From positions 1-64,000 of the forward strand of contig JAPLCB010000010.1 of the NCBI GenBank assembly GCA_026392455.1: a stretch of 64,000 nt of DNA. Reading direction: 5' to 3'. The notes beneath the pieces were generated by a model. That model worked only from the letters and a program-made list of their open reading frames with translations, made no database searches and was not told where the DNA came from. This document shows, one piece after another, positions 6,322-39,373 of the stretch (position 1 is its first letter; every line of letters begins with the position of its first letter). The stretch comes from Propionibacteriales bacterium (GTDB taxonomy: Bacteria > Actinomycetota > Actinomycetes > Propionibacteriales > Nocardioidaceae). The translations under genes were made by a program, and so were the position numbers.

Positions 6322-6324
6322 CCG

Positions 6325-24315: not shown

Positions 24316-24329
24316 TTACCCGCGAGTAG
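24316..24329 (+). promoter_or_regulatory. EMC-type operator, site A (ethylmalonyl-CoA mutase)
   Basis: TTACCCGCGAGTAG, an imperfect palindrome (TACCC-GC-GAGTA). It matches sites B (30208), C (37486) and D (38119). It lies 22 nt before ATG 24352. The closing TAG opens TAGCAC, a poor -10 box; TACCCT at 24340-24345, 6 nt before the ATG, is a better leaderless -10. Confidence 0.6.
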
Positions 24330-24351
24330 CACGAGGATTTACCCTCCTCCT

Positions 24352-26355
24352 ATGAGTGCAGAAAAGGATCGTCCCTGGGTGATGCGGACGTACGCCGGTC
24401 ACAGCTCGGCCGTCGAGTCGAACAAGCTCTACCGAGGCAACCTCGCGAAGGGTCAGACCGGTCTCTCGGTCGCGTTCGACCTGCCGACCCAGACCGGCTA
24501 CGACCCCGACTCCCCGCTGGCACGCGGCGAGGTCGGCAAGGTCGGTGTCCCGATCCAGCACCTCGGCGAGATGCGCAAGCTCTTCGCCGACATCCCGCTG
24601 ACCGAGATGAACACCTCGATGACGATCAACGCCACGGCGATGTGGCTGCTGGCGATGTACCAGGTCGCCGCGGAGGAGCAGAACCCGGAGATGTCGCCGG
24701 CCGACGTCGCCGCGAAGCTGGCCGGCACGACCCAGAACGACATCATCAAGGAGTACCTGAGCCGCGGGACCTACGTCTTCCCGCCGGCCGCCTCCCTGCG
24801 CCTGATCAGCGACATGATCGCCTACACCGTCCACCAGATCCCGAAGTGGAACCCGATCAACATCTGCAGCTACCACCTGCAGGAGGCCGGGGCCACGCCG
24901 ACCCAGGAGCTCGCCTACGCGCTGACCACGGCGATCGCCGTGCTCGACGCGGTCAAGGACGCGGGCCAGGTCGACGAGAAGGACTTCGAGCAGGTCGTGG
25001 GCCGGATCTCGTTCTTCGTCAACGCCGGCGTCCGGTTCATCGAGGAGACCTGCAAGATGCGGGCCTTCGTCCAGCTCTGGGACGAGATCACCACGGAGCG
25101 CTACGGCGTCAAGGACCCGAAGATGCGCCGGTTCCGTTACGGCGTCCAGGTCAACTCGCTGGGCCTGACCGAGGCGCAGCCCGAGAACAACGTCCAGCGG
25201 ATCGTGCTGGAGATGCTCGGCGTCACGCTGTCCAAGAACGCCCGCGCCCGCGCGGTCCAGCTGCCGGCCTGGAACGAGGCGCTGGGGCTCCCGCGCCCCT
25301 GGGACCAGCAGTGGTCGCTGCGCCTGCAGCAGGTGCTGGCCTTCGAGTCCGACCTGCTCGAGTACGAAGACATCTTCGACGGGTCCCACGTGATCGAGGC
25401 GAAGGTGGCCCAGCTCGTCACCGATGCCCGGGCCGAGATGGACCGGGTCCAGGCGATGGGCGGCGCCGTGGCCGCTGTCGAGTCGGGGTACATGAAGTCC
25501 GAGCTCGTCTCCGCTCACGCGACCCGCCGTGCCCGGATCGAGAACGGCACCGACATCGTGGTCGGGGTGAACAAGTTCGAGACCACGGCGGTCTCACCGC
25601 TCACCGCTGATCTCGACGGTGCCATCCAGACCGCTGACCCCGCGGCCGAGCGGAACGCCATCGACTCGCTGAACGCGTGGAAGGCCGAGCGCGACGAGGA
25701 CGCGGTGACCGCGGCTCTGGAGACCTTGGCCGCCGAGGCGAAGACCGACAAGAACCTGATGGCTGCGACCCTGGCCGCGGCGCGCGCCGGCGCGACCACC
25801 GGTGAGTGGGCCGGCACCCTGCGCGAGGTCTTCGGGGAGTTCCGGGCGCCGACCGGCGTCGCTGGTGCCGTCGGCGTGGCCGAGGCCGGCGCCGAGCTGA
25901 CCGCGGTCCGGGAACGCGTCAGGGCCACGGGCGAGGAACTGGGTGGCCGGCTGCGGCTGCTCGTCGGAAAGCCCGGTCTGGACGGCCACTCCAACGGTGC
26001 CGAGCAGGTCGCCGTGCGGGCCCGTGACGCCGGCTTCGAGGTCATCTACCAGGGCATCCGGCTGACCCCTGAGCAGATCGTTGCGGCTGCGATCGCCGAG
26101 GACGTGCACTGCGTGGGGCTGTCCATCCTGTCCGGCTCGCACATGGAGCTGGTGCCGGACGTCCTGGACCTGATGAAAGCCCAGGGGATCGGGGACGTCC
26201 CGGTGATCGTCGGCGGGATCATCCCGGACTCCGACGGGCGCAAGCTCGTCGAGCTGGGAGTCTCGATGGTCTTCACCCCCAAGGACTTCAGCCTCACCCA
26301 GGCAATGGACGGCATCGTCACGTCGATCCGTACGGCCAACGGGCTCGGTGGGTAG
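24352..26355 (+). CDS. meaA: Ethylmalonyl-CoA mutase (MeaA)
   Basis: A 667-residue adenosylcobalamin-dependent mutase that turns (2R)-ethylmalonyl-CoA into (2S)-methylsuccinyl-CoA in the ethylmalonyl-CoA pathway of acetate assimilation. The N-terminal TIM-barrel part begins with RTYAGHSSAVESNKLYRGN, the form typical of this clade (methylmalonyl-CoA mutases usually have YAGFS). The C-terminal B12 domain has D544-G-H546-S-N-G549 (the DxHxxG cobalt-ligand motif) and later GGIIPDSD. Both domains are on one chain. I chose ATG 24352 because the conserved sequence starts there and TACCCT lies 6 nt upstream. It is monocistronic. Confidence 0.88.
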   Translation: MSAEKDRPWVMRTYAGHSSAVESNKLYRGNLAKGQTGLSVAFDLPTQTGYDPDSPLARGEVGKVGVPIQHLGEMRKLFADIPLTEMNTSMTINATAMWLLAMYQVAAEEQNPEMSPADVAAKLAGTTQNDIIKEYLSRGTYVFPPAASLRLISDMIAYTVHQIPKWNPINICSYHLQEAGATPTQELAYALTTAIAVLDAVKDAGQVDEKDFEQVVGRISFFVNAGVRFIEETCKMRAFVQLWDEITTERYGVKDPKMRRFRYGVQVNSLGLTEAQPENNVQRIVLEMLGVTLSKNARARAVQLPAWNEALGLPRPWDQQWSLRLQQVLAFESDLLEYEDIFDGSHVIEAKVAQLVTDARAEMDRVQAMGGAVAAVESGYMKSELVSAHATRRARIENGTDIVVGVNKFETTAVSPLTADLDGAIQTADPAAERNAIDSLNAWKAERDEDAVTAALETLAAEAKTDKNLMAATLAAARAGATTGEWAGTLREVFGEFRAPTGVAGAVGVAEAGAELTAVRERVRATGEELGGRLRLLVGKPGLDGHSNGAEQVAVRARDAGFEVIYQGIRLTPEQIVAAAIAEDVHCVGLSILSGSHMELVPDVLDLMKAQGIGDVPVIVGGIIPDSDGRKLVELGVSMVFTPKDFSLTQAMDGIVTSIRTANGLGG

Positions 26356-26418
26356 ATCCCGGTCTGGACCTCTATTTCCGAAACCGGACATTTCACTCCT
26401 GTCGGTGTCTGTGATCGC

Positions 26419-26447
26419 TAGCATGATCGCGTCGGGCCCCGCCCGAC
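26419..26447 (+). promoter_or_regulatory. Putative -10 box and leader hairpin before the PAS kinase
   Basis: TAGCAT at 26419-26424 fits a -10 box. GTCGGGC-CCC-GCCCGAC (26431-26447) forms a 7-bp stem that would lie at the very start of the transcript. The hairpin could instead be the meaA terminator. Confidence 0.4.
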
Positions 26448-26466
26448 ACCGGGGTGAGGGAGCCTG

Positions 26467-27963
26467 ATGAGCGCGGACGCGGAGGGCAGGAGCAGGCCGT
26501 CTGACCTAGGCGGCTTGCTCGAGGCTGCTCCGGACGCGATGGTCGTCATCGACCGCGCGGGCACGATCGTCCTGGTGAACGCGCAGACCGAGAGCGTTTT
26601 CGGCTACGAACGCGGCGAGCTGCTCGGGCAGAAGGTCGAGATCCTGGTGCCGATCGACCTGCACGAGGCTCACCGGACCCACCGCACCGAGTACGTCGTC
26701 GACCCGCACGTGCGCACCATGGGCTCGGGGCTGGACCTCCGGGCGCGCCGGAAGGACGGGTCGGAGTTCCCGGTCGAGATCTCCCTGGCGCCGCTCCAGA
26801 CCGAGGACGAGTTCCTGATCTCGGCGGCGGTGCGGGACATGACCAACAAGCGGCGCGAGGAGCGGTTGTTCCGAGGCCTGCTCGAGGCTGCACCGGACGC
26901 GGTGGTGATCGTGGACCAGCAGGGAACCATCGTGCTGGTCAACGCCCAGGTCGAGGAACGTTTCGGGTACGACCGGGCGGAGATGATCGGGCAGTCGATC
27001 GAGATCTTGGTCCCGGACCGGTTCGCCGGGATGCACGCAGGCTTCCGCAACGGGTACGTCCGGGAGCCGCGCACCCGCCCGATGGGTCTCGCCGGGGACC
27101 TCTTCGCCCGGCGCAAGGACGGCACCGAGTTCCCGGTCGAGATCTCGTTGGCCCCGTTGGAGACCGAGGACGGGCTCCTGGTCTCGGCAGCGGTCCGCGA
27201 CATCAGTGAGCGGCGCCGGATGCAGACCGAGGCGGACCGGGTGAAGGACGAGTTCTTCGCGACGGTGTCCCACGAGCTCCGGACACCGTTGACCTCGATG
27301 CTCGGGTACTCCGAGCTGATGGCCGATCTGGAGGTGCTCAGTCCGCAGGGCAAGCGGTTCCTCCAGGTGATCACGCGCAGCGCTGAGCGTGAGCTCCGTC
27401 TGGTCGACGACCTCCTCACCCTGGTGGCGATCGAGGAGAGCGGATTGACCATCCGGACCGCACTGATCGACCTCGAACCGATCGTTCGCGATGCCGTCGA
27501 GGCCGCCCGGCCCCGGGCCGAGGAGGTCGACATCGACCTGAGCCTGGACATTCCCGGGGCTGCTGTGGTCATCGACGGTGACCGCGACCGGGTCGGCCAG
27601 GCGATCGACAACCTGCTGTCCAACGCCCTGAAGTTCACCCCCGGAGGTGGGTCGGTCCGGGTGCGGCTGGTGGTCCACGGCGGGACCGTCGAGGTCGAGG
27701 TCGCGGACTCCGGCATGGGCATCGACGAGATCGATCCGAACCGGATCTTCGAGCGTCTCTACCGATCGGGCTCCGCGGTGGCCCAGCAGGTCCCTGGTGC
27801 CGGTCTCGGTCTGACGATCGCCCTGGCCATCGTCGAGGCGCACCACGGCACCATCGGGGTGGTGAAGTCCGACACCCACGGCGCGACGTTCCGGATCACC
27901 CTGCCGCTGGCCGGTTCAGGAGCGGGTTCACCGATGCCGGTTGCGAGGACCAGGTCGATCTAG
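26467..27963 (+). CDS. Tandem-PAS sensor histidine kinase (soluble)
   Basis: A 498-residue kinase without membrane segments. Two PAS domains (about 16-127 and 137-248) precede the dimerisation domain with phospho-accepting H269 (SHELRTPLTSM) and a C-terminal HATPase with NLLSNALKFTP, DSGMGID and GAGLGLTIA. The two PAS domains are close copies: both contain GLLEAAPDA, GTIVLVNAQ and FPVEISLAPL. The signal is unknown and is likely cytoplasmic. No response regulator is adjacent, so it is an orphan; the CheY-like protein at 9232 is one possible partner. The gene converges with nucS, 7 bp away. Confidence 0.92.
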   Translation: MSADAEGRSRPSDLGGLLEAAPDAMVVIDRAGTIVLVNAQTESVFGYERGELLGQKVEILVPIDLHEAHRTHRTEYVVDPHVRTMGSGLDLRARRKDGSEFPVEISLAPLQTEDEFLISAAVRDMTNKRREERLFRGLLEAAPDAVVIVDQQGTIVLVNAQVEERFGYDRAEMIGQSIEILVPDRFAGMHAGFRNGYVREPRTRPMGLAGDLFARRKDGTEFPVEISLAPLETEDGLLVSAAVRDISERRRMQTEADRVKDEFFATVSHELRTPLTSMLGYSELMADLEVLSPQGKRFLQVITRSAERELRLVDDLLTLVAIEESGLTIRTALIDLEPIVRDAVEAARPRAEEVDIDLSLDIPGAAVVIDGDRDRVGQAIDNLLSNALKFTPGGGSVRVRLVVHGGTVEVEVADSGMGIDEIDPNRIFERLYRSGSAVAQQVPGAGLGLTIALAIVEAHHGTIGVVKSDTHGATFRITLPLAGSGAGSPMPVARTRSI

Positions 27964-27970
27964 GCAGGCC

Positions 27971-28669
27971 TCAGAACAACCGGTCGGTCGGGTCGTCGAG
28001 TCCCCGCAGAGCGTTGTAGTCGACCAGGGCACAGGCGATGCCGCGATCCTCGGCCAGCACCCGGGCCTGGGGCTTGATCTCCTGGGCGGCGAAGATGCCG
28101 CGGACGGCACCCTTGCTCGTGAGAAGCGGGTCACGGTTGAGGAGCTCGAGGTAACGGGTGAGCTGTTCGACGCCGTCGATGTCGCCACGGCGCTTGATCT
28201 CCACCGCGACCGAGAGCCCGTGGCTGTCGCGACACATCAGGTCGACCGGGCCGATCGCGGTGGGGAACTCCCGGCGTACCAGGCTCAGGCCTTCCAGGAG
28301 GGTGGCCGGGTGGTCGGCGAGGAGCTCCTGGAGGTGCTTCTCGACGCCGTCCTTCTGCAGGCCCGGGTCGATGCCGAGCTCGTGCGAGGTGTCGTGCAGG
28401 ACCTCCTCGATCAGGATCCTCAGGGTGTCCTCCGGCCCCTTGGAGGTGCTGCGACTGGTCACGACCCATTCGATCTTGCCGTCGTCGTTGGTGCCCTCCT
28501 TGACGGTGCACGGCGGACTCATCCAGTTCAGCGGCTTGTACGAGCCGCCGTCGGAGTGCACCAGGACCGAGCCGTCGGCCTTCATCATCAGCACCCGGGT
28601 CGCCAGCGGCAGGTGGGCGGAGAGTCGGCCGGCGTAGTCGACCTGGCAGCGTGCAACGACAAGGCGCAT
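27971..28669 (-). CDS. nucS: Endonuclease NucS (EndoMS), mismatch-specific
   Basis: A 232-residue nuclease that cuts both strands at mismatches and replaces MutS/MutL in Actinobacteria and archaea. The N-terminal DNA-binding domain (1-110) is followed by a RecB-like nuclease core with GPVDLMCRD and the catalytic [20 protein letters not shown]. The C-terminal DDPTDRLF resembles the tail that binds the sliding clamp. TAAGTT ends 7 nt before the ATG on the minus strand, so the mRNA is probably leaderless. Confidence 0.94.
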
Positions 28670-28693
28670 GGGGGAGAACTTAACTGATGCCGC

Positions 28694-29224
28694 TCAACGT
28701 CGCCGCACCCGGCGCAGCAGGTCCTTGCCGACCGCGGTGCCGATGGTCACCGGGTGATTGGCCAGGGTGGCGAGCCGGCCTCTGCGGGTCAGCGGGTCGT
28801 GGGCGATGCCGAGCTGGCGCAGGATCGTGGCCGAGTCGAAGTACGGCCGTTCGCAGGTGACCCCGGTGCCGTCGTCGAACTGGAACACGGCGATGCACCG
28901 GACCTCGAAGGAGCGGCCGGTCGCGGGGAGCCCCCGGAACGGTCCGAGATGGGTCCCGAGCAGCATGAACTCCACGACGATGGAGTCGTCGGCGTGGTGC
29001 AGGGCGATCAGCTCGTTGCGCTGGTCGGGGAACGCCGTCCGGGACTCCGCGAAGTACTCCAGCACCCGCTCGGTGCCGTCGAAGACGTCTCCGGTCGGGA
29101 CGATCTCGTAACGGGGGTGGGAGAAGGTCGCCATGGTGACGTCGTAGTCGTGGACGTTCTCGGACTCCATGTGCTCGATGATCACCGCTTCGCGGCGGGC
29201 GCGGAGCTCTGCGTCGGCTGTCAT
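28694..29224 (-). CDS. SnoaL-like / NTF2-fold protein
   Basis: A 176-residue protein resembling SnoaL-like polyketide cyclases: an N-terminal helix, HYDVTM-type segment, then TGRSFEVRCIAVFQF and YFDSATILRQLGI, typical of the NTF2 fold. The family covers cyclases, isomerases and uncharacterised proteins, so no reaction can be named. The C-terminus ends in a basic LLRRVRRR tail. TAGCGT (29236-29231, minus strand) ends 6 nt before the ATG, suggesting a leaderless mRNA. Confidence 0.75.
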   Translation of the reverse strand: MTADAELRARREAVIIEHMESENVHDYDVTMATFSHPRYEIVPTGDVFDGTERVLEYFAESRTAFPDQRNELIALHHADDSIVVEFMLLGTHLGPFRGLPATGRSFEVRCIAVFQFDDGTGVTCERPYFDSATILRQLGIAHDPLTRRGRLATLANHPVTIGTAVGKDLLRRVRRR

Positions 29225-29347
29225 GGCCTCACGCTAGCGGCGTTCCGGCGGTGTGGCCGATCACGCCGTGCAGACGACGAGAGGCCGCGCCGGCAGGGTG
29301 GACGGGAAATCGGCGCACCGGCCCCACCAGGCCGTTAGCCTCCTCGT

Positions 29348-30160
29348 GTGCCCGTAGGCGATCTGGACCACCTCGACACCGTGCTGCTCGCCCAGGGCGC
29401 CTCGATCTTCACGGCCCTGAGCGGGACGGCCAACGTCGTCATGCAGCTGAGCCGCCCCGAGATCGGGTACGGCGTGAAGGACAGCGTCGTGGTCGAGGGC
29501 AGTCTCTTCGGCAACCCGCGCCGCCGTCAGCGCACGACGGTGGGGCTGCTCGCCGTGGCCGTGCTCGGCACCCCGGCGGAGCGGGCGACGTACCGTGCGG
29601 CGGTCAACGTCTCGCACGCCCGGGTGCCGAACGCGTTCGACCCGGAGCTGCAGCGGTGGGTCGGGGCGTGCATCTACAAGGGCTTCGAGGAGGCCCGGGA
29701 GTACACCTACGGCCCGCTGACCGGCACCGAGCGTGCGGAGTTCTACCGTCAGGGGGCAATCTTCGGCGGGATGCTGCAGATGCCGCTGGACCTGTGGCCA
29801 GCAACCCGGGACGACTTCGAGGTCTACTGGCGCGACGGGCTGGCCCGGGCCCGGATCGACGCGGCCGTCGGGGCGTACCTGCACCGGGTGATCCGGCTGG
29901 AGTACCTGGACCGCACGATTCCGGCCCCGATCCTGCGCCTGCGCAGCTGGCTGGTCACCGGGTACCTGCCCGCCGAGCTCCGACCACAGCTGGGACTGAC
30001 CTGGAGCCCGCGCCAGCAGCGCCGGTTCGAGCGGTTCAACAAGGCCGTCGGCGCCGTGGTGCGACGGCTGCCGGAGCGTCGGCGCGCGTGGCCCTTCACC
30101 CGCTCGATCGCTCACCTGAGGACCCGGATCGCTGCCGGGGAGCACGTCTTCGGCGCTTGA
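29348..30160 (+). CDS. MpaB/DUF2236 family oxygenase-like protein
   Basis: A 270-residue protein of the DUF2236 family (oxygenase MpaB type, related to the latex-clearing protein Lcp). The features seen are VMQLSRPEIGYGV near the start, RYRAAVNVSHARV-like spacing with a conserved His (NVSHA), and YGPLTGTERAEFY. Members are thought to bind haem and oxidise hydrophobic substrates; the substrate here is unknown. TAGCCT (29336-29341) ends 6 nt before GTG 29348. It lies directly upstream of the EMC dehydrogenase, but that gene has its own promoter. Confidence 0.72.
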   Translation: MPVGDLDHLDTVLLAQGASIFTALSGTANVVMQLSRPEIGYGVKDSVVVEGSLFGNPRRRQRTTVGLLAVAVLGTPAERATYRAAVNVSHARVPNAFDPELQRWVGACIYKGFEEAREYTYGPLTGTERAEFYRQGAIFGGMLQMPLDLWPATRDDFEVYWRDGLARARIDAAVGAYLHRVIRLEYLDRTIPAPILRLRSWLVTGYLPAELRPQLGLTWSPRQQRRFERFNKAVGAVVRRLPERRRAWPFTRSIAHLRTRIAAGEHVFGA

Positions 30161-30207
30161 CCGGGACGAATGTGACCGGTCTGGCAGACCGAGGAGTGGA
30201 AGACCCC

Positions 30208-30221
30208 TTACTCACGAGTAG
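30208..30221 (+). promoter_or_regulatory. EMC-type operator, site B (3-hydroxybutyryl-CoA dehydrogenase)
   Basis: TTACTCACGAGTAG contains the perfect inverted repeat TACTC-AC-GAGTA. Its last three bases are the first three of TAGGTT (30219-30224), a good -10 box, so a bound protein would cover the promoter. The start codon is 22 nt downstream. Confidence 0.68.
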
Positions 30222-30243
30222 GTTGCGTGGCATCATCGCCGCC

Positions 30244-31464
30244 ATGACTGACATCTCAGCCACCCAGATCCACGACACGTTGGTACTCCCGTACCTCAAC
30301 CACGCCGTACGGATGTTCGAGCAGTCCTACGCCTCGCGCGGGGACATCGACGCAGCGATGCGGTTCGGTTGCGGCTACCCCCGTGGTCCGCTGACCACGC
30401 TGGACGAGCTCGGCCTGGACGTGGTCCGGGACGGTCTCGCTGCCCGGTACGCCGAGACCGGCGACAACCTGCACAAGCCCGCCGACCTGCTGGAGAAGCT
30501 GGTCGCCGAAGGCCGCACCGGAAAGGCCTCCGGGCGCGGCTTCTACACCTACGCGGACGGCGAGGTCATCGCTGACGACCAGACCCCGTCGGCTGACGAC
30601 AAGCCGCAGCTCAAGCACGACATCAAGACCGTCGGCGTCGTCGGCACCGGCACGATGGCCTCGGGCATCGTCCAGGTCTTCGCCGCTGCCGGGTACGACG
30701 TGGTCTTCGTCGGTCGCGGTGACGACAAGGTCGAGGGCGTGATCACGGGAATCAGCCGGGGTCTCGACAAGCTGATCGAGCGCGGCAAGTCCGACGAGGA
30801 CACCAAGAACGCGATCCTCGGCCGGCTGACCGGCGCCACCAGCCGTGAGGCGCTGGCGGACGTCGACATCGTCGTCGAGGCGATCGCCGAGGACCTGGAG
30901 CTCAAGCTCGAGCTGTTCCGTGACTTCGACCGGATCATCAAGGCCGGCGCCATCCTGGCCACGACCACGTCCTCGTTGCCGATCACCCAGCTGGCGGCCG
31001 CGACCTCGCGTCCGGAGTCGGTCATCGGGATGCACTTCTTCAACCCGGCGACCGTGATGAAGCTCGTCGAGGTCGTCACGGCGCCCGCGACCGCAGCGGA
31101 CGTCAACGAGACCACCCTCGCCCTGTGCGCCAAGGTCGGCAAGGTGGCGGTGTCCTGCGCGGACCGCTCCGGGTTCATCGTGAACGCACTGCTGTTCCCG
31201 TACCTCAACGATGCCTGCCTCCTGGCCGAGTCGGGCGTCGCGCTGGACGTGATCAACGACGCCATCAAGGAGACCGCAGGCTTCCCGATGGGACCGTTCC
31301 AGCTGCTCGACGTGGTCGGCAACGACGTCTCGCTCGCGATCCAGAAGGAGCTCTTCGCCGAGTTCAAGGAGCCCGGTTTCGCGCCGGCTGCGTCCCTGGA
31401 GAAGGTCGTGGCCGACGGTCACCTCGGTCGCAAGACCAAGAAGGGCTTCCACGACTACAGCTGA
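30244..31464 (+). CDS. 3-Hydroxybutyryl-CoA dehydrogenase with an extra N-terminal domain
   Basis: A 406-residue NAD(P)-dependent dehydrogenase interconverting acetoacetyl-CoA and 3-hydroxybutyryl-CoA. The order is unusual: a copy of the C-terminal 3HCDH domain comes first (about 8-105, with PYLNHAVRM, GYPRGPLTTLDELG, GKASGRGFYTY). Then comes the Rossmann domain with GVVGTGTMASG (131-141) and the catalytic His in MHFFNPATVMKLVEVV. The normal C-terminal domain (about 300-406) closes the protein and repeats the same signatures (FPYLNDACL, GFPMGPFQLLD, GRKTKKGFHDYS). ATG 30244 follows site B and TAGGTT. It most likely serves the EMC pathway. Confidence 0.88.
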   Translation: MTDISATQIHDTLVLPYLNHAVRMFEQSYASRGDIDAAMRFGCGYPRGPLTTLDELGLDVVRDGLAARYAETGDNLHKPADLLEKLVAEGRTGKASGRGFYTYADGEVIADDQTPSADDKPQLKHDIKTVGVVGTGTMASGIVQVFAAAGYDVVFVGRGDDKVEGVITGISRGLDKLIERGKSDEDTKNAILGRLTGATSREALADVDIVVEAIAEDLELKLELFRDFDRIIKAGAILATTTSSLPITQLAAATSRPESVIGMHFFNPATVMKLVEVVTAPATAADVNETTLALCAKVGKVAVSCADRSGFIVNALLFPYLNDACLLAESGVALDVINDAIKETAGFPMGPFQLLDVVGNDVSLAIQKELFAEFKEPGFAPAASLEKVVADGHLGRKTKKGFHDYS

Positions 31465-31502
31465 CCCCAGGCTCCCGGCCCTCCCGCCGGGTGGCGCTCA
31501 CT

Positions 31503-31536
31503 ACGACGCCGTCGTCCCTCGGGGCGGCGGCGTCGT
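31503..31536 (+). terminator. Hairpin after the 3-hydroxybutyryl-CoA dehydrogenase gene
   Basis: ACGACGCCG (31503-31511) and CGGCGTCGT (31528-31536) pair perfectly with a 16-nt loop, 38 nt after the stop. Confidence 0.5.
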
Positions 31537-31582
31537 CGCGTTCCCACCCGCGCGGGGACAAAACGGACGTAGGCTCGCGGCC

Positions 31583-32344
31583 ATGCAGTGGCGAGCGGCG
31601 TGCGCAGCGGGGTTGATGAGCCTGACCGTGGCAGCGCCGGCCCACGCCGCGGTCGCACCGCTCCCGGTGGGCACCCACGTCGACTACCAGCTCGGCGGCT
31701 CCCGGTCGGTGACCGCGGCCGTCGGCATCGTGGTGCGCGACCGGACCGCACGGCCGGTCCCCGGGAAGTACAACGTCTGCTACGTCAACGGCTTCCAGAC
31801 CCAGCTGGACGAGGGCGCCTTCTGGGCGGAGCGCCCGGACCTGATCCTCCGCAAGGACGGTCGGCCGGTCGTCGACGCCGCCTGGGGCGAGAAGCTGCTC
31901 GACACCCGGAGCCCGGCGAAGCGCGATCGACTGGCCGTCATCGTCGGGCGCTGGATCACCGGCTGCGCCCGCTCCGGGTTCCGGGCCGTCGAGTTCGACA
32001 ACCTCGACTCGTTCTCGCGTAGTCAGGGGCTGATCACGCCTGCGCAGAACAAGGCGATGGCTGCCCTGCTGGTGGCCCGCGCTCACCGCGCCGGGCTGGC
32101 GGCCGGGCAGAAGAACTGGTCGGAGTGGAACGGTCGGGTGGTCGGGTTCGACTTCGCGGTTGCCGAGGAGTGCGGACGGTACGCCGAGTGCGCCCGCTAC
32201 GTCCGGCACTACGGGAGGCGGGTGCTGGCGATCGAGTACCGCCAGGTCGACTTCGCGCGGACCTGTTCGCGCTGGGGGAGTCGCCTCGCCGTCGTGCTGC
32301 GGGACCGCGACCTGACCAGTACCGGGCTGCGCCGCTTCTGCTGA
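31583..32344 (+). CDS. Secreted GH114-like endo-alpha-1,4-polygalactosaminidase family protein
   Basis: A 253-residue protein with a signal peptide (about 1-23, cleavage near AHA-AV). The mature part has the family pattern: VDYQLGG, NVCYVNGFQTQ, GFRAVEFDNLDSFSRS (catalytic acidic residues), AAGQKNWSE and the Cys-rich VAEECGRYAECARY. Members cleave galactosamine polymers, or are uncharacterised and tied to cell-surface polysaccharides. TAGGCT (31570-31575) ends 7 nt before the ATG. Confidence 0.82.
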   Translation: MQWRAACAAGLMSLTVAAPAHAAVAPLPVGTHVDYQLGGSRSVTAAVGIVVRDRTARPVPGKYNVCYVNGFQTQLDEGAFWAERPDLILRKDGRPVVDAAWGEKLLDTRSPAKRDRLAVIVGRWITGCARSGFRAVEFDNLDSFSRSQGLITPAQNKAMAALLVARAHRAGLAAGQKNWSEWNGRVVGFDFAVAEECGRYAECARYVRHYGRRVLAIEYRQVDFARTCSRWGSRLAVVLRDRDLTSTGLRRFC

Positions 32345-32356
32345 CAGAATGACGGG

Positions 32357-33169
32357 GTGACCTCGTCCCTGCACACCACGGCGTACGGCGAGCACGGCAG
32401 CCGGGTCGTCTTCCTGCACGGGCTCTTCGGCCAGGGGCGCAACTGGACCGCGATCGCCAAGGCGCTGGCCAGCGAGCACCGGGTGCTGCTGGTCGACCTG
32501 CCGGACCACGGGAGGTCTGCCTGGACCCACGGTCCGCCGCAGGGCAAGGGCTTCGACCTGGTCGGGGTCGCGGACGTCATCGCCGTCGAGCTCGCGACCG
32601 GTGCCCCGGTCGCCCTGGTCGGTCACTCCTTGGGCGGCAAGGTCGCGATGGTGCTCGCCCTGCGTCACCCTGCGCTGGTCGAACGGTTGTGCGTGGCGGA
32701 CATGTCACCGGTGGCGTACACCAGCGGGAGCGAGTTCAGTGGCTACATCGAGGCGATGCGCGCGATGGACCTGGGTGCGCTGGCGCAGCGGGCCGACGCG
32801 GACTCGGCCCTGAGGTCAGCGGTGCCCAACCCGACCGTTCGGTCCTTCCTGCTGCAGAACCTGCGGCGCGACGCGACCTCCGACGGGTCCAGCTCCTGGC
32901 GCTGGCAGCCCAACCTCGAGGGGTTGCAGCGGGATCTGCCGGGCTTCGTCTCCTGGCCCGCGGAGCAGCTCACCGGGTGCACGCCGTACGACGGTCCGGT
33001 GCTGTGGGTCGGCGGCGCGAACTCCGAGTACATCGTCGACGAGTACGCCCCGGCGATGGACCGGTACTTCCCGCGCAACCGGCGGGTGACGATCAAGAAC
33101 GCCGGGCACTGGCTGCACTCCGAGCAGCCGGAGGTGTTCGTCGAGGTGCTGCGCCGGTTCTTGACGTAG
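32357..33169 (+). CDS. Alpha/beta hydrolase
   Basis: A 270-residue hydrolase. The oxyanion region is HGLFGQGRNW, the nucleophile elbow is GHSLGGK with Ser near residue 95, and the catalytic His is in NAGHWLHSEQPE near the end. It resembles YbfF-type esterases. The substrate is unknown. CAGAAT ends 6 nt before GTG 32357, a possible leaderless promoter. It is 12 nt downstream of the GH114-like gene. Confidence 0.88.
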   Translation: MTSSLHTTAYGEHGSRVVFLHGLFGQGRNWTAIAKALASEHRVLLVDLPDHGRSAWTHGPPQGKGFDLVGVADVIAVELATGAPVALVGHSLGGKVAMVLALRHPALVERLCVADMSPVAYTSGSEFSGYIEAMRAMDLGALAQRADADSALRSAVPNPTVRSFLLQNLRRDATSDGSSSWRWQPNLEGLQRDLPGFVSWPAEQLTGCTPYDGPVLWVGGANSEYIVDEYAPAMDRYFPRNRRVTIKNAGHWLHSEQPEVFVEVLRRFLT

Positions 33170-33190
33170 GCAAAGCCTCGCTCGACCCGC

Positions 33191-33721
33191 TCAGGCCTGA
33201 CGGGCCCGGTACGCCGCGACGGCGTTCCGGTTCCCGCACGCGGTCGAGCAGTACTTGCGCGAGCGGTTCCGCGACAGGTCCAGGACCACGCCGGTGCAGT
33301 CGTCGTCCGCGCACACCGCCAGCCGGGTCATCTCGTCGGCGCGGATCACGTCGATCATGGCCATGGCTGTCTCGACGGTGATCCGGGTGGCCAGCTCGGC
33401 GGTGTCGTCGACGGCATGGATGTGCCAGTCGAGGTCGCCGTGACGGACCAGTCGGGGGAGCGCGTCCGCGGTGGCGAGCATCGCGTTCACCTGATCGACC
33501 GCGTCGTCGCGGCTGCTGGTCAGCAGTGTGCGCAGACTCCTGCGCACCGCTCGGACCCGGGCGAGCTCAGCGGGGTCCCCGGTCCGGGCGCCGGTGTAGC
33601 CGTGCCGGTCGAAGAACGCGCCGAGGTCCTCGGTGGTGGTCAGGGTGTCGGGCTCGAGCTCGGAATTGGCGAGCTCGACGGCCGCCAGCAGGGCCGCCTC
33701 AGTGTCATCAGCGAAAACCAC
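33191..33721 (-). CDS. CGNR zinc-finger (ABATE domain) protein
   Basis: A 176-residue protein with an N-terminal ABATE-type domain and a C-terminal CGNR zinc finger: CADDDCTGVVLDLSRNRSRKYCSTACGNRNAVAAYRAR, with four zinc-binding Cys. Members are putative transcription regulators. It is divergent from an EamA transporter, a typical regulator-target layout. GTG 33721 has TAATCT 6 nt upstream on the minus strand. Confidence 0.88.
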   Translation of the reverse strand: MVFADDTEAALLAAVELANSELEPDTLTTTEDLGAFFDRHGYTGARTGDPAELARVRAVRRSLRTLLTSSRDDAVDQVNAMLATADALPRLVRHGDLDWHIHAVDDTAELATRITVETAMAMIDVIRADEMTRLAVCADDDCTGVVLDLSRNRSRKYCSTACGNRNAVAAYRARQA

Positions 33722-33760
33722 TTTGACAGATTACCAGGTCGAGACGTAATGTCATTAGCC
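33722..33760. promoter_or_regulatory. Overlapping divergent leaderless promoters, CGNR gene/EamA transporter
   Basis: On the plus strand TTGACA (33723-33728) and TAATGT (33747-33752) are 18 bp apart and end 8 nt before ATG 33761. On the minus strand TAATCT (33733-33728) ends 6 nt before GTG 33721 and shares bases with the plus-strand -35. TAATG-T-CATTA (33747-33757) is an inverted repeat over the EamA -10 box and could be an operator. Confidence 0.62.
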
Positions 33761-34852
33761 ATGCGGCAAATGACCCATGACAACCATGCGAACGTGCTGA
33801 TCTCGGGGGTTGGTTTCGCGGTGCTGTCGGCGGCCTGCTTCGGCACCTCCGGTGCCTTCGCGGCCGGTCTGATGGATGCGGGTTGGAGCTCGGCCGCGGC
33901 CGTCGCCGTCCGGGTGAGTGTCGCCGCCCTCGCGCTCGTGGTCCCGGCCTGGTGGGCGCTCGACGGTCGCTGGCACCTGCTCCGCGCCGAGGCTGGGACC
34001 CTGCTCGCGTACGGGCTGATCGCGATCGCCGGCTGCCAGCTCGCCTACTTCAACGCGGTGCGCCACATGGAGGTCGGCCCGGCCCTGCTGATCGAGTACA
34101 CCGCCCCGGTCGCAGTCCTGGGATGGGCCTGGTTCCGGCACGGCCAGCGACCGAGCCGGATCACCTTGGCGGGCGGTGCGGTTGCCCTCGTCGGGCTGGT
34201 CCTGGTGCTCGACCTGGTCTCCGGTGCGCGGGTGAGCACGCCGGGGGTCCTCTGGTCGCTGGCGGCCATGATCGGCGCCGCGTTCTACTTCGTCCTCTCC
34301 GCGGGGCGCAGCGAGCTGCCGCCCTTGGTGCTCGCCGCCGGCGCGATGATCCTGGGTGCGGTAGCGCTGCTGATGGCCGGCGCGGTCGGGCTGGTCGAGT
34401 TCCGGGTCAGCACGGCTGACGTCGCGTACGCGGCGTTCTCGGTACCGTTCTGGCTGCCGCTGGCGTTGCTGGGCCTGGTCTCTGCCGCGGTGGCCTATGT
34501 GGCAGGCATCGCGGCTAGTCGGCGCCTCGGCGCCCGGCTGGCCTCCTTCGTCGCGCTGCTCGAGGTGCTGTTCGCGCTCGGGTTCGCCTGGGTACTGCTG
34601 CGGGAGCTGCCCAACGGGGTCCAGTTCGCCGGAGCCGGGCTGGTCCTGGTCGGCGTCGTGGTGGTCAAGCTGGGCGAGCGGTCGGGCACGCCGGGCCGGA
34701 ACGCGACGACGACCGCCCCGGTCGAGGCGGCCGTCGTGCTGGAGAGTGCTGGGGACTACTCCGTCGGGTCTGCGACTGCCGCCAGCGGTGCGTCGTCGGC
34801 GTCGTCGTCCTTGCCGAACCCGGAGACCACGTCCTTGAGCGCCCCGAGCTGA
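33761..34852 (+). CDS. EamA/DMT family transporter
   Basis: A 10-helix inner-membrane transporter of about 363 residues with two EamA repeats. The first contains FNAVRHMEVGPALLIEYTAPV, the second YVAGIAASRRLGARLASFVALLEVLFA. The substrate is unknown; the family exports amino acids and other metabolites. I prefer ATG 33761 because the promoter fits a leaderless start there; ATG 33749 lies inside the -10 box. The last 30 or so codons (Ala/Ser/Thr-rich) run antisense into the 3' end of the coiled-coil gene. Confidence 0.85.
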   Translation: MRQMTHDNHANVLISGVGFAVLSAACFGTSGAFAAGLMDAGWSSAAAVAVRVSVAALALVVPAWWALDGRWHLLRAEAGTLLAYGLIAIAGCQLAYFNAVRHMEVGPALLIEYTAPVAVLGWAWFRHGQRPSRITLAGGAVALVGLVLVLDLVSGARVSTPGVLWSLAAMIGAAFYFVLSAGRSELPPLVLAAGAMILGAVALLMAGAVGLVEFRVSTADVAYAAFSVPFWLPLALLGLVSAAVAYVAGIAASRRLGARLASFVALLEVLFALGFAWVLLRELPNGVQFAGAGLVLVGVVVVKLGERSGTPGRNATTTAPVEAAVVLESAGDYSVGSATAASGASSASSSLPNPETTSLSAPS

Positions 34853-35943
34853 GCCACGATCGCGTCGCGCCGCTTGGACACCCGGACGACCTCGGCCTTG
34901 ATCTCGGCCAGGGCCTGCTCGGAGGCGGCGTGGCCGTTGATCCGGAGGCTCTCGGCCTCCTTCTTCGCCGAGCGCACCAGTTGCTCCGCCTCGCGGCGGG
35001 CCTTGGACAGGAGCGCATCAGCATCGGTCGCGGTCTGGTCCCGATGGCTGTTGGCGGCGTTGATCGCTTCGCGTGAACGGTCCTCGGCCGCGTTGGCCCG
35101 GGCCTCCGCCTCGGCGACCAGCCGCTGCGTCTCGGTGGTCGCGGTGGCGTGGTGCTCGGCTGCTTCGCGGACAAGCCGTTCGCGCTCGACCGCCATGATC
35201 CGGCGGGCTTCGGTGACCTCGCGGTCCGCGCCGGCACGCATCTGCTCGACGTCGTGCTCGGTGTTGGTGCGCAGGGCCTCGGTCTGCTGGGTCACGGCCA
35301 GCCGGAGCTGGTCGGCCTCGCGCTGGGCCGCCGCCAGGTAGTCATCGGCGTCGGCCTTGAGCCGGCGGCGCTCGGCCTCGATCTCGGCCATCGTCCGGAC
35401 CCGCTGGTCGTCCAGCTCGCCGAGCTGGACGACTCGCATGTCATCGGCGTCGCTCTCCGCGCGGGCGCGGATCCCGGCCGCCTCTCGCTCGGCCTGCGCC
35501 AGGATCGCCGCGGCCCGGGAGTTCGCCTCGCCCAGGACGTCGTCCGCCTGCTCCTCGGCCAGCCGGAGCATCTCGCTGGCCCTGCCGCCGAGGCCCGCGT
35601 ACGACGGGGTCTCGTTCTCGCTGAGCTTCTCGCGCAGCTGGGCGTTCTCCGCAGCGAGGATCCGGATCCGGTCCTGGGACTCGTTCAGGCTGGCGATCAG
35701 GCCGGCCCTCTCGGCGGAGGTGGTGCGCAGGTGCCGGTCGACGGCGTCGGTGTCGTAGCCGCCCTTGCGGACCACCGGGAGCGTCGTCGCGCTGGTGGAC
35801 GCGGCCTTCGGCGGGACCAGGGGAGCATTGGCGGAGCGCGGCACCCCGGAAGCCACCGGCTGGACCGGAATCTTGCGCGTCTGTTCGTTGTCGAGCTCGT
35901 CCGAAGCGGTGCTCGAACCGGTGGTGCCCTGTTCCTCGCTCAT
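34756..35943 (-). CDS. DivIVA/Scy/FilP-like coiled-coil protein
   Basis: A 395-residue protein. A disordered N-terminus (1-60) is followed by a DivIVA-like segment (GYDTDAVDRHLRTTSAERA, about 62-80). An almost unbroken coiled coil rich in Ala, Glu and Arg (about 80-365) and an acidic tail complete it. It resembles the Scy and FilP cytoskeletal proteins that organise growth poles with DivIVA in Streptomyces, where the genes also lie beside the epimerase-thiolase-MeaB cluster. GAGGGGC precedes the ATG. Which of the Scy/FilP group it equals is not decided by the sequence alone. Confidence 0.78.
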   Translation of the reverse strand: MSEEQGTTGSSTASDELDNEQTRKIPVQPVASGVPRSANAPLVPPKAASTSATTLPVVRKGGYDTDAVDRHLRTTSAERAGLIASLNESQDRIRILAAENAQLREKLSENETPSYAGLGGRASEMLRLAEEQADDVLGEANSRAAAILAQAEREAAGIRARAESDADDMRVVQLGELDDQRVRTMAEIEAERRRLKADADDYLAAAQREADQLRLAVTQQTEALRTNTEHDVEQMRAGADREVTEARRIMAVERERLVREAAEHHATATTETQRLVAEAEARANAAEDRSREAINAANSHRDQTATDADALLSKARREAEQLVRSAKKEAESLRINGHAASEQALAEIKAEVVRVSKRRDAIVAQLGALKDVVSGFGKDDDADDAPLAAVADPTE

Positions 35944-36021
35944 GGTGCCCCTCGCAGTTGGCGGTGCTGTGATCCCTCGAGGTCAGTCTCGCTGATACCC
36001 CGACCGATTCCCAAGCCGATC

Positions 36022-36080
36022 GCCGTCCGGAGACGGCAACAGGGCCGTTTCCCCCTGCAGGAAGGGGAAACGGCCCTGTT
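36022..36080 (-). terminator. Terminator of the ccr gene: 17-bp stem plus a second hairpin
   Basis: The arms at 36038-36054 and 36064-36080 are perfectly complementary over 17 bp around a 9-nt loop. GCCGTC-CGGA-GACGGC (36022-36037) forms a second stem directly after it in the direction of ccr transcription. It begins 21 nt after the ccr stop. Sequence T tracts are short. Confidence 0.9.
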
Positions 36081-36100
36081 GACGGAGTATCGGTACTGGA

Positions 36101-37438
36101 TCAGATCCCGCGGAACAGGTTGATCTTGTCGAGGTGCTTCTCGCGGAGCTCGCCGTTCTTCACGCCGAGGCCCTCCTCGGGCGCCAGGCAGAGCACGCCG
36201 ACCTTTCCCTGGTGCTTGTTGTGGTGGACGTCGAGCGACGCCTGGCCGGTCTCCTCCAGGCTGTAGACCCGCGACAGCGTCGGGTGGATCTTGCCCTGGG
36301 CGATCAGCCGGTTGGCCTCCCACGACTCGCGGTAGTTGGCGAAGTGGCTGGAGATGATCCGCTTCAGGTTCATCCAGAGGTAGCGGTTGTCGTACTCGTG
36401 CATGTAGCCCGAGGTCGAGGCGCAGGTGGTGATGGTGCCGCCCTTGCGGGTGACGTAGACCGAGGCGCCGAAGGTCTCGCGGCCCGGGTGCTCGAAGACG
36501 ATGTCGATGTCCTCGCCGCCGGTGAGGTCGCGGATGGCCTTGCCGAAGCGCTGCCACTCCTTGGGGTTCTGCTGGGTGCCCTCGTCGTTCCAGAACTTCG
36601 GGGCGAGCTCGGAGCGGTTGATGACGTGCTCGGCGCCCATGTTCCGCACGATCTGGGCCTTCTCCTCGTTGGAGACCACGCAGATCGGGTTGGCGCCACC
36701 GTTCAGCGCGTACTGGGTGGCGAAACCGCCCAGGCCTCCCGAGGCACCCCAGATCAGGACGTTGTCGCCCTGCTTCATGTTGCCGCCGTTGGTCGAGACC
36801 AGCTGCCGGTACGCCGTGCAGTTCACCAGGCCGGGCGAGGCCGCTTCTTCCCAGGTGAGGTGCTCGGGCTTCGGCATCAGCTGGTTGGCCTTGACCATCG
36901 CGACGTCGGCCAGACCGCCGAAGTTGGTCTCGAAACCCCAGATCCGCTGCGAGGGGTCCATCATCGTGTCGTTGTGGCCGTCCGGGGCCTCGAGCTCGAC
37001 CGACAGGCAGTGCGCGACGACGCGGGCGCCCGGCTTCCACTTGGTGACACCGGGGCCGACGGCCAGCACGACGCCGGAGAGGTCGGAGCCGACGATGTGG
37101 TACGGCAGGTTGTGCCGGGCGCCGAGGTCGGACTCGCGGCCGTAGCGCTCGAGGAAGCCGAAGGTGGAGACCGGCTCGAAGATCGAGGTCCAGACGGTGT
37201 TGTAGTTGATCGCCGAGGCCATCACCGCGACGAGGGCCTCGCCGGGGCCGAGCTCGGGAAGCGGCACCTCGTCGAGGTGCAACGACTTGCGGGGGTCCTT
37301 GTCGCGAGAGTCGAGACCCTCGAACATGTCGACCTCGTCCTTGTGGACCGTCATGGCCCGGTAGGACTCGGGCAGGGCGAGAGCTGCGAACTCCTCGGTC
37401 GAGGCTTCGGCCGTGATCGCATCGAGAATGTGCTGCAC
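36101..37438 (-). CDS. ccrA: Crotonyl-CoA carboxylase/reductase
   Basis: A 445-residue MDR-family enzyme that reduces crotonyl-CoA and fixes CO2 to give (2S)-ethylmalonyl-CoA, the defining step of the EMC pathway. The sequence carries the long Ccr N-terminus (DSRDKDPRKSLHLDEVPLPELGPGE), AINYNTVWTSIFEPVSTF, the NADPH site IWGASGGLGGFATQYA and FEHPGRETFGASV. These set Ccr apart from ordinary quinone reductases. GTG 37438 has AGGAG at 37451-37447 on the minus strand. Operator site C overlaps its TAACAT -10 box. It is followed by a very strong terminator. Confidence 0.96.
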   Translation of the reverse strand: MQHILDAITAEASTEEFAALALPESYRAMTVHKDEVDMFEGLDSRDKDPRKSLHLDEVPLPELGPGEALVAVMASAINYNTVWTSIFEPVSTFGFLERYGRESDLGARHNLPYHIVGSDLSGVVLAVGPGVTKWKPGARVVAHCLSVELEAPDGHNDTMMDPSQRIWGFETNFGGLADVAMVKANQLMPKPEHLTWEEAASPGLVNCTAYRQLVSTNGGNMKQGDNVLIWGASGGLGGFATQYALNGGANPICVVSNEEKAQIVRNMGAEHVINRSELAPKFWNDEGTQQNPKEWQRFGKAIRDLTGGEDIDIVFEHPGRETFGASVYVTRKGGTITTCASTSGYMHEYDNRYLWMNLKRIISSHFANYRESWEANRLIAQGKIHPTLSRVYSLEETGQASLDVHHNKHQGKVGVLCLAPEEGLGVKNGELREKHLDKINLFRGI

Positions 37439-37485
37439 GTCAGGGGCTCCTGATCTTGGGGGCTGCGGGGATTGCGCGCCGTATG

Positions 37486-37499
37486 TTACCGGCGAGTCA
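37486..37499 (-). promoter_or_regulatory. EMC-type operator, site C (ccr)
   Basis: On the minus strand TGACTCGCCGGTAA; on the plus strand TTACCGGCGAGTCA, 11 of 14 bases identical to site A. Its terminal bases run into TAACAT (37488-37483, minus strand), the likely ccr -10 box, about 45 nt before the GTG. Half-site symmetry is weaker than in site B. Confidence 0.58.
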
Positions 37500-37529
37500 G
37501 GTTGTTCGGCCGGCTGTGTGCCGGACGTC

Positions 37530-38018
37530 TCAGTGTGCGTCAGTTCCGTGTGCGTCGGCCGCCGGCTCGACGAGCTCGACCAGCACGCCGCCGGCGTCCT
37601 TGGGGTGGATGAAGTTGATCCGGCTGTTCGCGGTGCCGCGCTTGGGGGCGTCGTACAGCAGTCGCATCCCGCGCTCGCGCAGGATCGCGGAGACCTTCTC
37701 GACGTCGGTCACCCGGTAGGCGAGCTGCTGCAGACCCGGGCCGGAGCGGTTCAGGAACTTGGCGATCGTGGACTCGTCGTTGAGCGGGGCCAGGAGCTGG
37801 ATGCGCTGGGTCCCCGAGCGGTCGGGGTCGCCCGCGCTGGTGTTGATCTGGACCATCGCCTCCTCGACCTTCTGCTCCTCGTTGACCTCGCGGTGGGCAA
37901 CGGTCATCCCGAAGACGCTCGTGTAGAGCTCGATAGCGGCATCGAGGTCGGGCACGGCGACGCCGACGTGGTCGATGCAGACGAACAGGTCTTCGGGGAG
38001 GTCCAGGGGTGCAGTCAT
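37530..38018 (-). CDS. mce: Methylmalonyl-CoA epimerase
   Basis: A 162-residue VOC-fold metalloenzyme that interconverts (2R)- and (2S)-methylmalonyl-CoA (and ethylmalonyl-CoA in the EMC pathway). Metal ligands lie in [20 protein letters not shown] and the Glu of VLVELVEP near the end. The start ATG 38018 ([11 protein letters not shown]) is where the conserved fold begins; the frame is open for 50 more codons upstream but these do not look coding. It is divergent from the thiolase gene. Confidence 0.93.
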
Positions 38019-38118
38019 GCCGACATCCTCGACCAGATCCCGGAGTTGCTCAACCGGAGCTGCTGAGGTGTGACGCCCCTGACACCGGACCAGAGCCCGA
38101 GACCCCTCCCGAGATCGG

Positions 38119-38132
38119 CTACCGGTGGGTAG
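38119..38132 (+). promoter_or_regulatory. EMC-type operator, site D (thiolase/epimerase intergenic)
   Basis: CTACCGGTGGGTAG (TACCG-GT-GGGTA), with four of five half-site bases in agreement. Its last three bases start TAGTGT (38130-38135), a good -10 box for the thiolase gene, giving a leader of about 47 nt that includes AGGAGG. It lies in the gap shared with the divergent epimerase gene, so it could control both. Confidence 0.6.
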
Positions 38133-38188
38133 TGTTCTTGGGTACTCGAAACGCTTCGACACCAGCACCGCTCGTCCCAGGAGGACCC

Positions 38189-39373
38189 ATGTCCGTAAAT
38201 GTCATCGTCGCCGGCGCCCGTACGCCGATCGGTCGCCTGCAGGGCGGCCTGGCTTCGCTCTCCGCAGCTGAGCTGGGCGCGGTCGCCATCAAGGGTGCGC
38301 TGGAGAAGTCCGGTGTGACCGGTGACCAGGTGGACTACGTGATCATGGGTCAGGTCATCCTGGCTGGCGCTGGTCAGAACCCGGCGCGGATGGCGAGCGT
38401 CGGCGCCGGCATCCCGATGAGTGTTCCGACCATCACCATCAACAAGGTCTGTCTCTCCGGGCTCAACTCCATCGCCCAGGCCTCGGCGCTGATCACGGCC
38501 GGCGAGGCGGAGATCGTGGTTGCCGGCGGGATGGAATCGATGACCCAGGCGCCGCACCTGCTGCCGAACTCCCGCGCAGGGTTCAAGTTCGGTGACACCA
38601 CGCTCGTGGACTCGATGGCGTACGACGCCCTGTACGACCAGTTCACCAAGCAGGCGATGATCAACCTCACCGATTCCTGCAACGCGACCAAGGACCAGTT
38701 CACCCGCGAGGAGCAGGACGCCTTCGCCGCTCAGTCGCACCAGCGTGCCGCCGCCGCGCAGAAGAACGGCGTCTTCGACGACGAGATCGTCCCGGTCACC
38801 ATCTCCTCGCGGCGCGGCGACGTCGTCGTCACCGAGGACGAGGGCGTCCGTGGCGACACCACCACCGAGTCCCTCGCCGGTCTTCGGCCGGTGAGCAAGG
38901 AAGGCACGATCACCGCAGGCTCGGCCTCGCAGATCTCCGACGGTGCCGCTGCCGTCGTCGTGATGAGCAAGGCGAAGGCCGAGGAGCTCGGTCTCGAGTG
39001 GCTGGCCGAGATCGGCGCGCACGGCCAGACCGCGGGTCCCGACTCGAGCCTGCAGCTGCAGCCGGCCGCCTCGACCGCCAAGGCGCTCGCCAAGGAAGGC
39101 ATCACCGCCGCTGACCTCGACCTCGTCGAGTTCAATGAGGCCTTCGCCGCGGTCGGGATCGCCTCGGCACGCGAGCTCGGCCTCTCCGCAGACATCGTCA
39201 ACGTCAACGGTGGCGCGATCGCGCTGGGTCACCCCGTCGGGATGTCCGGCACCCGCGTGGTCCTGCACCTCGCTCTCGAGCTCAAGCGTCGCGGCGGCGG
39301 CATCGGCGCGGCTGCCCTCTGCGGCGGCGGCGGTCAGGGCGACGCCCTCATCGTGCGCGTCCCGAAGAGCTGA
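38189..39373 (+). CDS. atoB: Acetyl-CoA C-acetyltransferase
   Basis: A 394-residue thiolase that condenses two acetyl-CoA to acetoacetyl-CoA, the entry step of the EMC and PHB pathways. The nucleophilic Cys lies in [11 protein letters not shown] near residue 88, and the conserved C-terminal motifs are [17 protein letters not shown] and [12 protein letters not shown] 38189 follows the ribosome binding site AGGAGG. It has the operator and -10 described for site D. meaB starts 32 nt downstream. Confidence 0.94.

Follow-up and report, generated by a model that had tools for sequence, protein, structure and literature searches.

In Escherichia coli, fatty-acid breakdown and the assimilation of acetyl-CoA through the glyoxylate shunt are jointly controlled by FadR and IclR. 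In Methylobacterium extorquens, a gene of the ethylmalonyl-CoA (EMC) pathway is reportedly activated by CcrR, a TetR-family protein. The mycobacterial long-chain acyl-CoA-responsive TetR repressor FdmR regulates fadE5 and other beta-oxidation genes (PMC9262360) and corresponds to Rv0238 (PMC12403877); FadR of Thermus thermophilus, a TetR protein of fatty-acid genes, is described with the operator TTRNACYNRGTNYAA, which has an ACY..RGT core (PMC5597230). Within the accessible text of the open-licence literature searched, no description was found of EMC-pathway control in actinobacteria without the glyoxylate shunt. Here, we analysed a 64,000-nt stretch of a Propionibacteriales bacterium of the family Nocardioidaceae (assembly GCA_026392455.1, contig JAPLCB010000010.1, positions 1 to 64,000; C5:1-64000 in our numbering, hereafter the window), in which four EMC-pathway promoters share the 14-bp palindrome TTACY-N4-RGTAA. 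Comparison of sequences predicts with high confidence that this palindrome is a real, conserved operator with a defined target set. The operator likely belongs to a TetR-type repressor regulon for beta-oxidation that has been extended to the EMC pathway, the best candidate regulator being a TetR encoded beside fadA2 on another contig. Together, a defined operator, its targets on several contigs and a named candidate for the regulator make the control question directly testable.

A preliminary description of the window had placed four sites in it, and all four sequences were found at those positions. The operator TTACCCGCGAGTAG (24316..24329, + strand) lies 10 nt upstream of a predicted −10 box, TACCCT (24340..24345, +), which ends 6 nt before the ATG (24352) of a meaA-type acyl-CoA mutase gene (ethylmalonyl-CoA mutase, 667 aa; 24352..26355, +; NCBIfam/Pfam mutase models). 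In two Streptomyces loci, ccr is immediately followed by a gene whose product is 71%–72% identical to the mutase, so that meaA is a fair name for the latter. The second operator, TTACTCACGAGTAG (30208..30221, +; recognised by its sequence and homolog scores), is fused at its end to the predicted −10 box TAGGTT (30219..30224, +) of hbd, encoding a 3-hydroxybutyryl-CoA dehydrogenase of 406 aa (30244..31464, +; NCBIfam/Pfam). On the minus strand, TGACTCGCCGGTAA (37486..37499), which has one mismatch to the core and is conserved in ccr loci, likewise runs into the predicted −10 box TAACAT (37483..37488) of ccr, the crotonyl-CoA carboxylase/reductase gene (36101..37438; TIGR01751, 603 bits against a cut-off of 379). 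The fourth, CTACCGGTGGGTAG (38119..38132, +; score 8/10), occupies the region between a methylmalonyl/ethylmalonyl-CoA epimerase gene (37530..38018, −; TIGR03081, 138 bits against 115) and the divergent gene of an acetyl-CoA C-acetyltransferase (thiolase; 38189..39373, +; TIGR01930, 431 bits against 241), and is fused to the predicted thiolase −10 box TAGTGT (38130..38135, +). The fusion with a −10 box that had been claimed for three of the four sites was thus located in each case, with meaA as the exception. It had also been stated that the window holds no TetR gene, and none of the genome's 61 PF00440 matches falls there. As a separate observation, the hbd protein of the window carries approximately 120 additional N-terminal residues that are 3HCDH-like and a second match to the 3HCDH C-terminal domain.

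The motif was originally given as a TACYC-N2-GRGTA core. The four sites do share a motif, but the palindrome TTACY-N4-RGTAA, to which all of them belong, describes them better than that form. Sites were scored as the best 14-mer against the symmetric form TTACYNNNNRGTAA at its ten defined positions (maximum 10). The four central bases do not enter the score; among the 69 ccr and hbd sites with a score of at least 9, they are usually S-R-Y-S, and the outer bases are near-invariant, partly because the sites were selected by score. Four central bases separate the half-sites here, in contrast to one in the Thermus FadR operator.

Beyond the window, the operator occurs in the same genome upstream of a fadE5-like acyl-CoA dehydrogenase gene, another fadE, etfBA and a gene for an etfD-like membrane Fe-S oxidoreductase, as well as at a divergent fabG4/fadA2 pair, a Mce-type ABC ATPase gene and an enoyl-CoA hydratase gene. 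It is further found at genes for a biotin carboxylase, a two-domain SDR and a DUF4442 protein and at a TetR/fatty-acid hydroxylase pair. The names fadE5, etfD, fabG4 and fadA2 are our presumed assignments, resting partly on sequence features. When further EMC genes were checked for the motif, as initially proposed, a predicted mcd (an acyl-CoA dehydrogenase gene whose product is 72%–73% identical to its counterpart in the Streptomyces ccr-meaA cluster) was found to carry the operator 39 nt before its start, and its relative in another genome (G199, 81% identity) has the operator too. A malyl-CoA-lyase-like gene (mcl) has a weaker site (8/10) 24 nt before its start, so that, among the EMC genes checked, thiolase, hbd, ccr, meaA, predicted mcd and, at this lower score, mcl have a site. 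Among 61 genomes of the family, the stringent form of the motif was present in 21, at 34 places. In the 21 loci examined from these places (one per genome), 19 sites were at ccr, hbd, etfBA, fadE5-like, fadE, SDR, DUF4442, Mce-ATPase or etfD-like genes, and two (L201 and L203) were unassigned. Several sites in the own genome were excluded as targets because they had no clear lipid link. One lies upstream of a GAPDH gene (L002), another near a substrate-binding protein gene (C6:356457) and a third within or next to a coding region (C7:161163); the others are those of L054, L058 and L006, the gene at the last having no Pfam match.

In the mechanism that we propose, a TetR-type repressor binding the 14-bp palindrome would govern beta-oxidation in this Nocardioides-like actinobacterium, and in the Nocardioides-like lineage its regulon would take in thiolase/epimerase, hbd, ccr, meaA, mcd and possibly mcl. 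A rise in fatty acyl-CoA would release the repressor and turn on acetyl-CoA production and assimilation together. Both the acyl-CoA ligand and the repressing sign are suggested by analogy with FdmR- and FadR-type systems. Isocitrate lyase had no match in the own genome; the EMC route is therefore likely the path for acetyl-CoA assimilation, which would make joint control sensible. Unlike the E. coli system of FadR and IclR, the one proposed here serves the EMC pathway as its assimilating route and appears to couple it to beta-oxidation directly, through one operator and without a second regulator. Such control would also link fat breakdown to the supply of the polyketide building blocks ethylmalonyl- and methylmalonyl-CoA.

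At ccr, the operator is conserved. From 80 named ccr loci, approximately 200 bp upstream of the gene was scored in 79 (L074, with < 100 bp upstream, was left out). Scores of 9–10 were obtained in 55 of the 63 non-streptomycete loci and of at least 8 in 61, compared with none of at least 8 in the 16 loci of Streptomyces/Kitasatospora; shuffled ccr promoters reached 9 in 0.3% of cases. For the other genes, homologs below the identity limits were dropped (epimerase, 2 of 59 rows; hbd, 14 of 41; meaA, 4 of 22). The hbd homologs within reach of ccr loci scored at least 9 in 14 and at least 8 in 18 of 27 cases. Near ccr loci, meaA had a site of at least 9 in both Aeromicrobium loci and none of at least 8 in 16 streptomycetes. 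In 30 family genomes, 28 meaA promoters scored at least 8 (15 with 9 and 13 with 8; shuffles, 5%), a count that includes one site, in G014, within the coding region. The thiolase relatives scored at least 9 in only 7 of 58 cases and at least 8 in 29 (shuffles, 7.5%), and this site, being weaker than that of ccr, was downgraded as evidence. Across 64 mostly Nocardioidaceae, non-streptomycete loci (1.23 Mb), 83 sites scored at least 9, many of them ccr sites because the loci had been picked for ccr; all 83 have an end outside called genes and precede a start by at most 150 bp. In the same 1.23 Mb, each of seven control patterns produced 0–5 comparable intergenic sites, one of these patterns having 40 matches overall, mostly genic.

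Among the described systems, the FdmR regulon is the one to which this regulon can be compared most closely. G063, a genome that we take to be mycobacterium-like from its gene content, has the same palindrome at relatives of fadE5 and etfD, at etfBA and at fabG4/fadA2, and a TetR in the FdmR position, presumed to be FdmR from the gene order, adjoins the cluster. Three of its six stringent sites are at the fadE5 relative (plus a second site), the etfD relative (plus a second site; 55% identity) and etfBA (44%); the other three are near flavin monooxygenase-like, unassigned and GMC-oxidoreductase-like genes, and an additional operator lies between fabG4 and fadA2. An operator at the fadE5, etf and fadA2/fabG4 promoters, with the gene names partly presumed, and a candidate regulator gene beside fadA2/fabG4, but on the opposite side of fadA2 from that in G063, are both found in the genome analysed here. 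The two systems differ in that the Nocardioidaceae candidate belongs to another TetR lineage with a different recognition helix, and in that the regulon here includes EMC genes. In other families, the motif was found at fadE5-like genes, etfBA and fadA-like genes and, in G068, at a ccr-like gene (60% identity over a 63-aa fragment), whereas G072 and G219 have several sites near genes without an evident lipid role. In G063 (L345:10414-15798), the TetR adjoining the fabG4/fadA2 locus is of a different lineage and the locus bears the same operator, which suggests replacement of the regulator under a conserved operator. Tentatively, and with more doubt than belief, mycobacteria-like and Nocardioidaceae-like lineages might thus retain one beta-oxidation operator at the same genes while using non-orthologous TetRs at the same fadA2 locus, and in the Nocardioidaceae the operator might have spread further, gene by gene, to the scattered EMC genes, so that direct coupling of beta-oxidation and EMC pathway replaces the FadR/IclR–glyoxylate logic. 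If true, this would be a clean case of an operator outliving its regulator.

The candidate regulator gene (C3:551855-552535, −; PF00440, 56.6 bits against a cut-off of 24) lies beside fadA2/fabG4, across from the operator, and the chance that it encodes the regulator is about even in our estimation. This fadA2-side TetR is single-copy (E ≤ 1e-20) in 39 of the 61 family genomes, with a nearly invariant helix-turn-helix (HTH). Of the 21 genomes having the stringent motif, 20 encode this TetR, against 19 of the 40 that lack the motif (Fisher p = 0.0002). A meaA site of at least 8 was found in 33 of 36 genomes with this TetR (again including G014) and in 2 of 13 without it (Fisher p = 8e-7), and a site of at least 9 in 18 of 36 and 1 of 13 (p = 0.008), although all three tests ignore shared ancestry and most genomes lacking the TetR are small or fragmentary, which counts against the candidate. 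These co-occurrence counts refer to the fadA2-side TetR alone, and G025 (anchor motif not found), G003 (TetR present) and G059 (TetR present; match starting at residue 85) were left out of the meaA comparison. In G041 and G055, single sampled members of two genera that themselves lack this TetR, the meaA site is absent or degenerate; outside the family, the one genome with the TetR has the stringent motif. The AlphaFold model shows a mostly helical, TetR-like fold (pLDDT 90.8), for which a fold search ranked DarR first and also returned PfmR and two acyl-CoA-binding TetRs, Bacillus subtilis FadR with stearoyl-CoA and Mycobacterium tuberculosis FasR; this generic fold and its mixed nearest structures do not settle the ligand.

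Besides the thiolase site, which is weak by sequence, and the misplaced site of G014, several observations weigh against a beta-oxidation regulon under the fadA2-side TetR. No stringent match was found in 19 of the 39 genomes with this TetR. Conversely, G058, in a third genus, lacks the TetR but keeps its meaA site, and G036 lacks it as well, yet has an etfBA site; in G015, also without the TetR, the meaA site overlaps the start codon. The promoter of the fadA2-side TetR gene itself has no strong site (best, 7/10), and in the own genome the symmetric form TTACYNNNNRGTAA with up to one mismatch shows only a modest excess (21 places against 12). Of 16 out-family genomes in which the candidate TetR had no match, 9 carry the stringent motif, in some cases at beta-oxidation genes, which means that the motif must be read by a different protein there; only nine TetR candidates per genome were scored in this search. 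Finally, the fadA2-side TetR had been assumed from its position to be the FdmR ortholog, and this was rejected: it is 32% identical over 94 aa to the FdmR-position TetR of G063 and ranks eighth by phmmer among own-genome TetR-locus proteins compared with that protein. No TetR of the own genome is a clear full-length ortholog of the latter, the best reaching 26% over 192 aa.

The motif in those nine out-family genomes also fits the strongest rival explanation, namely the same regulon bound by another TetR (C6:155108, C8:350283 or C4:51519), with the fadA2-side TetR a mere neighbour; we regard this as a serious possibility, somewhat short of an even chance. We presume that the TetR at C8:350283 is MadR-like and the one at C4:51519 FasR-like. 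The preliminary description had proposed to look for a TetR gene whose own promoter bears the site, and such a gene does exist: C6:155108, apparently auto-regulated and divergent from a fatty-acid hydroxylase gene, has TGACTCACGAGTAA 37 nt upstream (L139:5058-5071), with a core identical over 11 bp to the hbd site of the window. All five orthologs found (L155–L159, in other genera; 38%–58% identity) keep an own-promoter site of 8–9/10, and in its HTH the C6 TetR resembles the FdmR-position protein (42% over 72 aa) more closely than the fadA2-side TetR does. However, a clear ortholog (E ≤ 1e-39) is present in only 6 of 41 family genomes, whereas the operators are general; the C6 TetR therefore cannot be the general regulator and was retained as a rival candidate for some of the targets. 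The C8 TetR, which is widespread, and the FdmR-position protein weakly share the TetR_C_46 domain, and the promoter of the C8 ortholog in G219 bears a stringent site, but the promoter in the own genome scores 6, none of 18 other promoters of this type reaches 8, and C8-type TetRs also occur in genomes without the meaA operator. Within the family, the co-occurrence described above fits the fadA2-side TetR, the only one for which it was computed.

A second explanation, close to the preliminary description, is a dedicated EMC regulator answering a CoA ester of that pathway, with a second protein of similar site preference running beta-oxidation. The site shared by the four EMC promoters of the window is in its favour, as is the existence of an EMC regulator elsewhere, CcrR of Methylobacterium. 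CcrR and the regulator proposed here would both be of TetR type with an EMC target; however, the operator at the −10 box fits repression here, and its distribution spans beta-oxidation. The site is not confined to EMC genes, since beta-oxidation genes carry the same operator in the own genome, in the family and beyond it. The ccr and fadE/etf sites follow one consensus, several of each are fused to the −10 box, and no second regulator tracking the EMC genes alone was found among the TetRs examined, which were only some of those present. A dedicated EMC regulator is accordingly improbable, and a general fatty acyl-CoA signal is more likely than an EMC intermediate. Of the single regulator put forward in the preliminary description, the shared operator near the −10 box, its conservation in the family and a probable TetR-type repressor are retained, whereas specificity for the EMC pathway and a response to one of its CoA esters are not.

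The position of the operator relative to the promoter bears on whether it is an operator at all. In ccr relatives with a site of at least 9, the last TA of the palindrome begins a TANNNT box in 54 of 55 cases. Of the 29 thiolase relatives scoring at least 8, 27 show the same fusion; among the 14 hbd relatives scoring at least 9, only 2 do, although hbd in the window is fused. At meaA, 29 of 35 promoters with a site of at least 8 have TANNNT 8–11 nt past the site and 6–8 nt before the ATG or GTG; given this short distance, the meaA mRNA is probably leaderless across the family. A repressor dimer would cover the −10 box at ccr, thiolase, hbd, mcd and etfBA, or the −35/spacer region at meaA, and so would block the contacts of RNA polymerase there, repression being suggested by this position. 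Since most ccr and thiolase sites run into the −10 box, the motif could instead be a promoter element, such as an extended −10 signature or one belonging to an alternative sigma factor. However, it is a full palindrome, and its distance to the −10 box varies from the fused ccr sites through the mostly unfused hbd sites to the upstream sites of meaA, which points to an operator rather than a sigma-factor signature and leaves the promoter-element explanation very improbable.

Regarding frequency, the core TACYNNYGRGTA has five strand matches at three places in the window against 0.13 expected, and none of 100 shuffles reached five. With one mismatch allowed, as the ccr site needs, there were 12 matches against 4.5 expected; such matches are common by chance, and the ccr site alone would be inconspicuous without comparative data. 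In the whole genome (3.55 Mb), TTACYNNYGRGTAR has five exact matches, two of which are the meaA and hbd sites, and its reversed control none; allowing up to one mismatch leaves a modest excess (30 strand matches, compared with 21 in the control). Neither outcome that the preliminary description had named as speaking against the motif was found: its frequency in the genome is not random, as the exact matches indicate, and it is not absent from related Nocardioidaceae, being conserved at ccr, at meaA and in the 1.23-Mb loci. A chance likeness of four AT-containing stretches in GC-rich promoters, to which only the common one-mismatch matches lend support, has a negligible probability and was rejected on the window, genome, ccr, meaA and 1.23-Mb locus counts, above all the 55 of 63 conserved ccr promoters and the 83 of 83 sites at promoter positions.

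Two sets of minor observations concern sites outside the proposed target set. GAPDH and PGK genes, recognised by eye, are preceded at a distance of 81 nt by an exact match, TTACTCCCGAGTAG (L002:1501-1514); this may be due to chance or may reflect a link to central metabolism. In 12 of the 16 streptomycete ccr loci, a gene is preceded by a TTACY-type palindrome whose end reads GGTTA or AGTTA (L122–L138; at about 5,300–6,650 in most loci and at 546 in L128); in L127 and L134, this palindrome lies in a gap shared with a 3-hydroxyacyl-CoA dehydrogenase gene (hbd). In the same two loci, where the ccr promoter is without the operator, a gene judged by eye to be TetR-like (L134:8861-9583 and L127:8768-9604) is located directly upstream of Streptomyces ccr and possibly encodes a separate EMC regulator there.

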